A stretch of DNA of 64,000 nucleotides, from positions 1 to 64,000 of the forward strand of contig NZ_JAENRR010000005.1 of NCBI RefSeq assembly GCF_016612505.1, written 5' to 3'. Below, in pieces: positions 15,027-18,874 of the stretch. This DNA is from Carboxylicivirga marina. GTDB lineage: Bacteria; Bacteroidota; Bacteroidia; Bacteroidales; Marinilabiliaceae. Both the position numbers and the translations under genes were made by a program. Position 1 is the first letter of the stretch. Each line of letters opens with the position of its first letter. The notes under the pieces are model-generated. The model was not told the DNA's origin, made no database searches, and saw only the letters and a program-made list of their open reading frames with translations.

Positions 15027-18000
15027 TTAAGCAGGTAATCCTTTACCATGACACTGCTTATATTTTTTACCACTACCACACGGACAAGGCTCATTACGAC
15101 CTACCTTTTTCTCTACTCGTACCGGCTCAACACGCTCAGGTTTTTTCTGACCACCTTGCTGAGAACCATTACCTCGTGAGAATTCGTCTTTTCGCGTTTG
15201 CATCTTACTATAATCCTGACGCTTGCGCTCCTGAGCTTCCTGAACACCATCGGCATTTTGAATAGGAATATGCCCCTTTGAAAGCAATGAAACAACCGCT
15301 TTATTGTTTTCACCAACCATGGTCTTAAACAAGTTAAAAGACTCAAACTTGTATATTAACAATGGATCTTTCTGCTCGTAAGTAGCATTCTGTACGGCCT
15401 GACGCAAATCATCCAACTCACGCAAGTGCTCTTTCCAAGCATCATCAATGGTTACTAACATGGAAGCCTTCTGGAACGAACGAACCAACTCTTGTGATTC
15501 TGTTTCATAAGCTTTTTTCAGATTGGTCGTAATCTGATATACTTTTTGACCATCGCTGATAGGCACCACAATATTCTTGTACATTTCAGCTTTAGTCTCG
15601 TATACATCTTTAATAACAGGATTAGCCTGCTGAGCAATCATTTCGCCTTTGCGCTTGTAGGCTTCCCACATTTTATCAAACAGCTGAGTTGATAATTCAT
15701 CAGCTCTTCCTTTTAAGAACTCTTCTTCAGCAAATGGGGATTGTGCCGAGAAAACACGAATCAATTCTAATTTGAAACCTTCATAATCGCCTGCTTCTTG
15801 ATATTCGGCCACAATATCCGAACATGTATCAGCCATCATATTGGAAATATCTACCTGAATACGTTCTCCGTACAAGGCATGTCGACGCTTGGTGTATATC
15901 ACTTCACGCTGCGAATTCATCACATCATCATATTCCAATAATCGCTTACGAATACCGAAGTTATTTTCTTCTACTTTCTTCTGTGCGCGCTCAATGGATT
16001 TAGTAATCATGCTATGCTGAATCATCTCACCATCTTCTAATCCAAGACGGTCCATCGTTTTCACGATCCTATCTGACCCGAACATACGCATTAAATCATC
16101 TTCCAATGACACAAAGAACTGAGAAGAACCCGGATCACCCTGACGACCCGCACGACCACGCAACTGACGATCGACACGTCGTGATTCATGACGCTCGGTA
16201 CCTATAATGGCCAAACCACCTGCATCTTTCACTTCTTTAGATAGCTTAATATCGGTACCTCGACCTGCCATGTTGGTAGCAATAGTTACAATACCAGCAG
16301 CACCGGCTTCTGCAACTACTTCTGCTTCACGTTGGTGTAATTTCGCATTCAGTACATTATGCTTAATTCCACGCATCTTTAAAGTACGGCTTAACAGCTC
16401 CGAAACTTCAACCGATGTGGTACCAACCAATACCGGGCGTCCTGCTTCAACTAAACGAATGATTTCAGCACTTACAGCATTGTATTTCTCACGCTTGGTT
16501 TTATACACGATATCTTCCATATCGTGACGTTGAATTGGGCGATTAGTAGGTATTACAACCACATCCAACTCATAGATATCCCAAAGTTCGCCTGCTTCTG
16601 TTTCCGCTGTACCAGTCATACCTGATAACTTGTTGTACATACGGAAGTAGTTCTGCAAAGTAATGGTTGCATATGTCTGTGTAGCTGCCTCAACCGTCAC
16701 GCGTTCTTTTGCTTCAATTGCCTGGTGTAAACCATCTGAGTAACGTCGCCCTTCCATGATACGACCTGTTTGCTCATCAACAATCTTCACCTTGTTTTCC
16801 ATTACCACATACTCCACATCCTTTTCAAATAAAGTATAGGCTTTTAATAGCTGGTTGATGGTATGTACACGCTCTGATTTGATAGAGAAATTTTGAAGAA
16901 TCGCATCCTTTTTCTTCGTACGCTCTTCTTCAGACATTGTCTCTTTTTCCAGAATTGCAATATCAGAACCTACATCGGGCAATACGAAGAAATCAGGATC
17001 CTCCGACGAACCTGTTATTAAATCGAGACCTTGATCTGTTAATTCAATAGAGTTATTTTTTTCATCAATAACAAAGAATAAAGGATCTGTAACCACATGC
17101 ATGTTTTTACTATTCTCCTGCATGTAGAAGTTTTCAGTTTTAAGCATACTGGCTTTAACACCAACCTCACTTAAAAACTTAATGATAGCTTTATTTTTTG
17201 GTAAACCTTTAAATGCACGAAGCAATAATAGTGCACCTTCTTCTTGTACTTTTTTGTCTGATGACTTCATTTTTTGCTTGGCTTCTGCCAAAACACCAGT
17301 CACCAATTTTCTTTGAGCCTCAACTATCTTTTCAATTTTTGGTTTTAAATCGCCAAACAACTGATCATCCCCCTTTGGTACCGGACCAGAAATAATCAAT
17401 GGCGTACGAGCATCATCAATTAATACCGAGTCAACCTCATCGACAATGGCATAATTGTGCGGACGCTGCACTAAATCGTCAGGCGAAATAGCCATGTTAT
17501 CACGCAAATAATCGAAACCAAACTCATTGTTGGTACCAAATGTAATATCTGCTTTGTATGCCGCACGACGCTCAGGAGAATTAGGGCGGTGCTTATCAAT
17601 ACAATCAACTGACAAACCGTGGAATTGGTATAAAGGCCCCATCCATTCCGAGTCACGCTTAGCCAGGTAATCATTCACCGTTACCACATGCACACCACGA
17701 CCAGCCAATGCATTTAGGAACACTGGTAATGTCGCCACCAATGTTTTACCTTCACCAGTAGCCATCTCGGCAATTTTACCACTATGAAGCACCACACCAC
17801 CAATTAGCTGCACATCGTAATGAATCATGTCCCAGGTAATTTCATTACCACCAGCTGACCATGAGTTATAATAAATGGCATTATCACCTTCTATTTCAAC
17901 AAAATCTTTGGTTGTGGATAAATCACGGTCGAATTGTGTAGCAGCCACTTCAATCGATTGATTTTGTGACAAGCGACGAGCCGTATCTTTCACAATTGAA

Positions 18001-18338
18001 AAAGCTTCAGGCAAAGCCTCTGTTAAAGCTGTTTCTAATTTCTCTGTGATGTCTTTTTCTAGCTTATCAACTTCTTTGTAAATCTTTTCTTTTTCAGCAA
18101 CCGGAACATCTAGCGAATCGGTTTTTGCTTTTAATTCAGCAATTTTATCCTGTTCGGCTTTTACTGCTCCCTGAATGCGTTCACGTAATTCAGTTGACTT
18201 CTGACGCAATTCATTGTGCGATAACTTTTCAATCTGTGGGTAAACCTCTTTGATTTGTTTTACCAAAGGTTGTACCTCTTTCATATCTCTGTCGTACTTG
18301 TTTCCAAACAACTTGGAAATCAAACCACTCAATGCCAT
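15027..18338 (-). CDS. secA: Preprotein translocase ATPase SecA
   Basis: The 1103-residue motor of the Sec translocon, which drives unfolded preproteins through SecYEG using ATP. Walker A is [14 protein letters not shown] (about residue 200), followed by the DEAD-like [20 protein letters not shown], the GTTSVE and NMAGRGTDI helicase motifs and [14 protein letters not shown]. The C-terminus carries the zinc-binding tail [14 protein letters not shown]. The length above 1000 residues is normal for Bacteroidota, which have an insertion in the first nucleotide-binding domain. It starts 95 bases after the stop of a small exported protein ending in RAGP; see that entry for possible secretion-responsive control. 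Confidence 0.97.
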
Positions 18339-18377
18339 AATATTATGTGTTATTTATTTACTAATTTATTGAATATG

Positions 18378-18398
18378 AGTCTAAGCGATTGTTAGACT
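18378..18398 (-). promoter_or_regulatory. Hairpin in the leader between the secM-like gene and secA
   Basis: On the minus strand AGTCTAA pairs with TTAGACT around a 7-base loop, 40-60 bases upstream of the secA start. A competing pairing GAGTC / GACTC shares the right arm. Such mutually exclusive pairing is what a translational switch would need, but the stem is short and does not itself cover the start codon. Confidence 0.45.
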
Positions 18399-18433
18399 TT
18401 GACTCTATGAGTTAAAAACTTTAGTCTGATTAA

Positions 18434-18874
18434 TTATACCAAAGGTCCGGCACGAGTTACAAGCGAATACTTGTTTCTGTTTTGAAGAATTAACGCATCA
18501 TTAAATGCGTAATAAGAAGTACAACAGCTAGCTTCATCAGGAATTGATTCAGGTTTTACACCTATGCTCTCAGCATTAAAATCGGGCAAAGAACCTTTGG
18601 TCTCAACAACTTTATACTCTGTAGCTTTAAGTGTTTGAAAGCGCTCTATTGGTAATTCGCTCGCATGCTTTATAGCATTATCCCATTCAATAACCTCGGC
18701 CAGATGACCTGATGAAAGCAATTGAAACTGTTCAAGGATAATTTCACGAACATTATCTTCAGCAAAGGTAAGACCACGTTTGTTGTTACCATCAGCAACA
18801 CAAGTAGCAGTCATCATTAGGGTCACCCCAATGAGCTTTAAATAATAGGCGTCTATTTTTTGCTTTTGCATCAT
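18434..18874 (-). CDS. Small exported protein upstream of secA with C-terminal RAGP (SecM-like candidate)
   Basis: A 146-residue protein of no family I recognise. The N-terminus is a signal sequence: basic MMQKQK, then a hydrophobic stretch (YYLKLIGVTLMMTATCVA). The middle is soluble with a CC pair near residue 117. The C-terminus reads YSLVTRAGPLV, so RAGP occupies residues 141-144, two residues before the stop. RAGP is the core of the E. coli SecM arrest motif, which also ends shortly before its stop and lies directly upstream of secA. The upstream SecM residues (Phe150, Trp155, Ile156) are not matched. Gene order, export signal and RAGP position together make a secretion-monitoring arrest peptide plausible; stalling itself is inference. 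Confidence 0.7.
   Translation of the reverse strand: MMQKQKIDAYYLKLIGVTLMMTATCVADGNNKRGLTFAEDNVREIILEQFQLLSSGHLAEVIEWDNAIKHASELPIERFQTLKATEYKVVETKGSLPDFNAESIGVKPESIPDEASCCTSYYAFNDALILQNRNKYSLVTRAGPLV

Follow-up and report, generated by a model that had tools for sequence, protein, structure and literature searches.

Arrest peptides encoded in the leaders of secA, secDF and yidC were surveyed by Fujiwara et al. (2024; PMC10987492), who screened more than 30,000 genomes with RAGP as one of the query motifs and defined the RQH family; only proteins of less than 300 aa and of unknown function, or known monitors, were retained. The part of that article drawn upon here describes secA-leader arrest peptides with RAPP-like motifs that were tested in vitro, including the group uA_RQH_Bacteroidales. 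It reports that all tested RQH-class members stall B. subtilis ribosomes, many of them those of E. coli too, and that two members from upstream of secA in Bacteroidales did so efficiently, E. coli ribosomes being stalled less. For Bacteroidales_2 (R102 and P104 of a RAPG motif), it gives no toeprint at the motif that accounts for arrest in the E. coli system. According to the portion used of a second article (PMC12992588), RAGP supports arrest in the contexts of ApdP and ApcA, except for ApdP with E. coli ribosomes in vitro.

The secA uORF and the described arrest peptides

We analysed a window of 64,000 nt from Carboxylicivirga marina, in which all features described below lie on the minus strand. 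An upstream ORF (uORF) of 146 aa (18434-18874), a candidate secretion-monitoring arrest peptide by its ORF and by its homologues upstream of secA, is separated by a leader of 95 nt (18339..18433) from secA (15027..18338, 1103 aa), the presumed regulated gene, whose product was identified by NCBIfam NF009536 at 1879.5 bits. The uORF occurs in single copy in this genome (G000), and its product ends in TRAGPLV, with RAGP, the arrest motif predicted from conservation, at residues 141-144 (18443..18454) and the stop two residues later; length, C-terminus, gap and shared strand all agree with the first-pass annotation. Over its six frames the window has 49 ORFs that start with ATG and reach 140 aa or more (18,250 aa together), and the uORF alone contains RAGP. 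By analogy with the toeprints in the part of PMC10987492 used here, the predicted P-site residue is Gly143, the third of the motif.

A hydrophobic export-signal-like segment covers residues 10-26 (18797..18847), with a Cys at residue 25. The best hydropathy window has a mean of 1.86 and lies 116 aa N-terminal of Gly143; hydropathy and homology make the product a putative exported protein. Residues 42-50 (18725..18751) form VREIILEQF, a segment conserved in the genus according to the alignment of homologues. Since a hydrophobic segment, RAGP at the end and secA behind are found together, the uORF has the anatomy of a monitoring substrate. As to a second monitor in this genome, nothing arrest-like was seen by eye among ORFs of at least 50 aa located 5' of secDF or yidC.

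E. coli SecM likewise has secA downstream, RAGP shortly before its stop and an export signal, and the locus had first been proposed as a SecM-type candidate in which the key upstream residues of SecM were absent. At the positions of the SecM arrest sequence FxxxxWIxxxxGIRAGP, the window peptide has L128, R133, N134, V139 and T140, i.e. none of the five key residues, and RAGP alone matches. Pfam includes a SecM model, and the product gave no Pfam match at E <= 1 and no NCBIfam match at E <= 0.01; the best E against solved structures was 0.34. On the arrest sequence and the absence of Pfam and NCBIfam matches we reject SecM homology, and a leader that sequesters a Shine-Dalgarno sequence, as in SecM, finds no support in the folding predictions for this locus. 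What stands of the proposal is a secA-leader candidate independent of SecM, which fits the RQH class and not SecM proper.

The nearest described group is uA_RQH_Bacteroidales, which shares with the uORF its position in the secA leader, the phylum, the order (as placed in GTDB release 202), an N-terminal localisation signal (in the uORF a putative one), a long spacer and a C-terminal RAPP-like motif; its description in the cited part of PMC10987492 supersedes the earlier remark that the annotator knew of no described analogue in this phylum. The uORF is a small ORF without annotated function directly upstream of secA on the same strand, its C-terminal RAPP-like motif is conserved (17 of 17 homologues and 55 of 66 leaders, see below), its spacer between signal and motif exceeds 30 aa (116 aa) and its N-terminal segment is hydrophobic. 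On sequence, the window peptide thus fits the RQH class, with the signal judged by hydropathy only, and not SecM. The tested Bacteroidales_2 differs in that its RAPG at R102 fits family f106 and not the window family; it probably belongs to the f106 lineage, because a 106-aa f106 ORF (G274) has an R at exactly position 102. ApcA, ApdA and ApdP resemble the window peptide in their RAPG or RAPP core at the P-site, but they precede yidC2 or secDF2 and belong to other phyla. The uA_NSP-stop peptide of Sphingobacteriaceae is also a secA-leader arrest peptide of Bacteroidota; as characterised in the part of the source considered here, its arrest takes place at the stop codon, Pro being the last residue, and it has no RAGP, whereas the window peptide ends in RAGPLV and not in NSP.

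We consider it very probable that the window uORF encodes a Sec-exported monitoring peptide of the RQH class (RAPP-like), most likely of uA_RQH_Bacteroidales, from which we infer stalling and control of secA; that it adds to a published kind of arrest peptide is well supported. RAGP at the peptidyl-transferase centre would stall the ribosome, Gly143 then occupying the P-site and Pro144 the A-site; active SecA/SecYEG would pull the nascent peptide and release the stall, and when export is short the stalled ribosome would raise secA expression. The step from stall to secA is probably unlike that of E. coli SecM, i.e. without Shine-Dalgarno unmasking, and could proceed by leader RNA refolding, transcription attenuation or translational coupling.

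Conservation of RAGP before secA

A first homologue set was obtained by searching 60 relatives by overall similarity, of which 25 matched at E <= 1. Sixteen homologues with E up to 3.7e-5 were used together with the window sequence (17 in all), and 11 rows with E > 0.005 were dropped. RAGP is kept in 17 of these 17 sequences, as are one E column and one Q column, in which the placing of the long forms is doubtful.

A motif-blind sample was then built from all 71 genomes of the family Marinilabiliaceae, which we take to be placed in Bacteroidales in GTDB release 202. A secA match was found in 67 of them and upstream DNA in 66, the contig of the remaining one beginning about 10 nt before the secA match. 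In 55 of the 66 leaders and in 17 of 20 genera, an ORF a short way before secA has RAGP near its end (53 by an automatic rule, plus G088 and G093, which were read separately as the rule had missed their secA start). It lies 2-5 residues before the stop in the short forms (once 10), and 43-47 residues before the ORF end in six of the 55. All 14 genomes of the window genus, the window genome included, carry such a uORF before secA. The 11 leaders without RAGP are those of G028 (KAGP), G020, G031 and eight genomes of genus g6, among which the contig of G018 reaches just ~266 nt upstream of secA. In the secA leaders of 77 other families of the order, RAGP was found in none of 86 (26 + 60 loci); the two f106 genomes read have RAPG in one case and RAPE in the other.

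The motif is encoded by 41 different 12-mers among the 53 genomes retained by the automatic rule, and on these comparisons RAGP is under selection at the protein level. In the same 53 cases all positions from -14 to +7 outside the motif vary, the invariance of the motif itself being there by selection of the set. The expectation that RAGP would be conserved among homologues was borne out. Other parts are kept besides it: the E and Q columns and, within the genus, the signal segment together with [VIA]REIIL[ED]Q, found in 14 of 14 sequences. VREIILEQF is absent from the three aligned homologues of other genera. Since the residues N-terminal to RAGP differ between genera, arrest strength is not predictable.

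The remaining anatomy is kept as well. Each of the 47 short forms has a hydrophobic segment in the first half of its open frame, at a distance of 104-187 aa from the predicted P-site (in G002, G034 and G030 the best window may precede the true start), and uORF and secA are on the same strand, with a gap of 75-417 nt (median 111).

Leader RNA and possible routes to secA

The AGTCTAA/TTAGACT stem on which the first-pass annotation had built a leader hairpin is present (18378..18398), but it overlaps an alternative pairing, GAGTC/GACTC (18405-18401 with 18381-18377), and it is the latter that the minimum-energy fold of the whole window leader picks, at -9.7 kcal/mol and z -1.96 with the stop codon included. 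Negative z was obtained for 47 of 52 leaders (mean -1.73). The mean z of the 47 short-form leaders was -1.46, against -0.50 in 58 secA leaders of other families (Mann-Whitney p 1.7e-4, the rows being related) and -0.74 in ten family leaders without RAGP. Two leaders, L004 and L005 (G010 and G004), contain long near-perfect palindromes between uORF and secA (-52.9 and -52.1 kcal/mol), which resemble each other by eye and are possibly a repeat element.

The greater structure of the short-form leaders counts in favour of transcription attenuation, i.e. a stalled ribosome preventing the formation of a weak intrinsic-terminator-like hairpin. Terminator-like hairpins were predicted in 12 of the 47 short-form leaders, where shuffled sequences gave an expectation of 3.4, but also in 7 of the 58 leaders from other families (3.9 expected), while the family leaders without RAGP had none in ten (1.2 expected). 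The window leader has no terminator-like site between uORF and secA, the only one found lying inside the uORF, and several of the genus's leaders have, by eye, a T-run that is about 10 nt or more away from the stem. The modelled leaders speak weakly for attenuation, which we regard as an unlikely route.

Refolding of the leader RNA in the manner of E. coli SecM, so that the secA start is exposed, would equally draw on the structure of the leaders and on the alternative pairings of the window leader. When the footprint of the stalled ribosome was masked, however, only 2 of 51 leaders showed a rise of over 0.1 in the predicted openness of the secA start, 2 of 51 showed a fall, and the mean unpaired value moved from 0.53 to 0.55; SecM-like unmasking is thus unsupported by folding over these 51 leaders, and so is the hairpin control first suggested for this locus. 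Furthermore, Bacteroidia ribosomes do not recognise Shine-Dalgarno sequences, as stated in the portion consulted of PMC9976891. Because masking barely opens the secA start and these ribosomes are blind to Shine-Dalgarno sequences, the SecM output mode is doubtful, and we judge refolding of this kind quite unlikely.

Enzyme-like secA neighbours carrying the motif

Six of the 55 RAGP-bearing secA-leader ORFs carry an FGE-sulfatase (SUMF1-like) domain: G023, G065, G066 and G067 (g11), G024 (g12) and G029 (g17), at loci L053, L016, L058, L059, L062 and L094 (L058 being that of G065). PF03781 was matched in the two forms scanned (E 2.7e-59 and 1.8e-61), and a custom HMM recovered all six, five whole and one with an internal deletion. 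RAGP is located inside the domain, in a loop 43-47 residues before the stop; in the five forms with the flanking GNVW motif, it is preceded by GNVW[EQ]W and followed by [RH]V[LI]RGGS. These proteins start with an N-terminal hydrophobic segment, which by eye resembles in g11 and g12 that of short forms of g1, g10 and g12, G029 being less alike. The motif persists even where the gene includes an entire additional domain, and over 17 genera despite changing spacer sequence and length. This makes it very improbable that the window uORF encodes just a small exported protein of the usual kind, which shares a transcript with secA and bears RAGP incidentally, even though its signal segment and VREIILEQF are likewise conserved within the genus and stalling is a prediction.

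RAGP was found in none of the 10 other FGE-domain proteins read in five family genomes (7 of the 17 matches were left unread), nor in any of 28 from the order (30 loci, 2 without the pattern being dropped). In the tree, the five whole FGEs linked to secA group together as one clade (100/98), whose nearest relatives there, L303 and L304, are 38-53% identical FGE lipoproteins away from secA and have no RAGP. Two solved FGEs have GP in the aligned loop where the secA-leader forms have RAGP; since G-P is already there, two changes could make RAGP. The Cys residues of the segment that follows in the two solved FGEs are absent from the secA-leader forms, and Cys residues after the GP loop matter for catalysis.

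We read the FGE form as having come first, and the short form as having arisen from it by erosion, on the following comparisons. In G065 about 117 model positions are missing inside the FGE domain while signal and RAGP are kept (an assembly error is possible), and of two sister species, G072 has the short form and G024 the FGE form. In addition, [YF]xG is found at -8 to -6 in 6 of 6 FGE forms and in 9 of 47 short forms, eight of which belong to one genus; when 21 other offsets were examined in the short forms, they gave a single match altogether. Repeated gain or transfer may instead account for the distribution. On the secA tree the FGE forms do not group together but are dispersed, and short forms have no FGE homology elsewhere: an HMM search of 53 sequences for residual homology in the spacers, with filters off, returned the six FGE forms only, the best short form having an E of 0.22. 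In G065 and G072 (L344 and L345), a gene for a rhomboid-like membrane protein was seen by eye upstream of the uORF, which is not the case in the window.

In many other families, the gene before secA encodes a type I phosphodiesterase of ~500 aa related to PafA (PF01663 in the one such neighbour scanned), and this protein has IR[ASPG]P[NSTG] near its C-terminus when beside secA. In the order sample (39 matches beside secA and 32 others, further matches being left unread), R[ASPG]P was present in 37 of the 39 adjoining copies, the exceptions being G306 (RICSP) and G257 (no Arg). Among named genomes, which may share species with the order sample, the motif was present in 31 of 31 secA-linked copies found among 80 loci by a pattern in which the Pro was fixed, while Arg and the second residue were left free, encoded by 30 different 15-mers; carriers include B. 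fragilis (L273) and Porphyromonas (L207). Other carriers beside secA were noted at L203 and L097-L141. The part used of PMC12992588 indicates that A, S, P and G as second residue keep arrest wholly or partly in ApdA/ApdP, while Asn at the fourth place, seen in the PafA-like motif, is not included among the RQH motifs named in the corresponding part of PMC10987492.

The motif was absent from the 49 PafA-like copies read that are not beside secA, mostly distant paralogues. These 49 comprise 29 copies from the order (one more being unreadable) and 20 from Marinilabiliaceae (f1), one of which is that of G026, where secA itself had no match; two order copies ~3 kb upstream of secA lack the motif too. 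Almost all copies away from secA are only ~30% identical, so that the motif may be characteristic of one clade of the enzyme; the sole close one, G212 (47%), has RVPN. In Marinifilum, Ancylomarina and Prevotella vespertina, ORFs of 131-137 codons occupy this place, and IRAPG or IRAPS is found no more than five residues from their ends. The frame of P. vespertina (L237), of 131 codons, ends in KIRAPSFTF 133 nt before secA, has by eye a signal-like N-terminus and is itself a short arrest-peptide candidate.

From these forms we tentatively propose, as a reading somewhat short of an even chance, that Bacteroidales often sense secretion, at the gene before secA, with a complete enzyme-like protein that is exported and has the arrest motif in its own domain, i.e. 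an FGE-fold lipoprotein in some Marinilabiliaceae and a PafA-like phosphatase in many families, B. fragilis included. Short monitors would then be remnants, signal plus motif, left after erosion of the enzyme domain. An arrest-like motif inside enzyme-like secA-leader proteins looks new by sequence comparison: in the PMC literature searched, no FGE-borne or PafA-borne secA arrest motif is named in titles or abstract openings, and PafA-like enzymes were excluded from the published screen because of its limits, as given in the part of PMC10987492 used here, of less than 300 aa and unknown function.

The family offers a testable set of candidate secA monitors. Since ribosomes of this phylum take no account of Shine-Dalgarno sequences, the published SecM output mode cannot simply apply. 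If the enzyme-borne forms stall, they would show from where arrest peptides can originate, namely by few changes beside a G-P or P already present in an exported enzyme, and screens for small proteins of unknown function would miss secretion monitors in gut and oral Bacteroidales.
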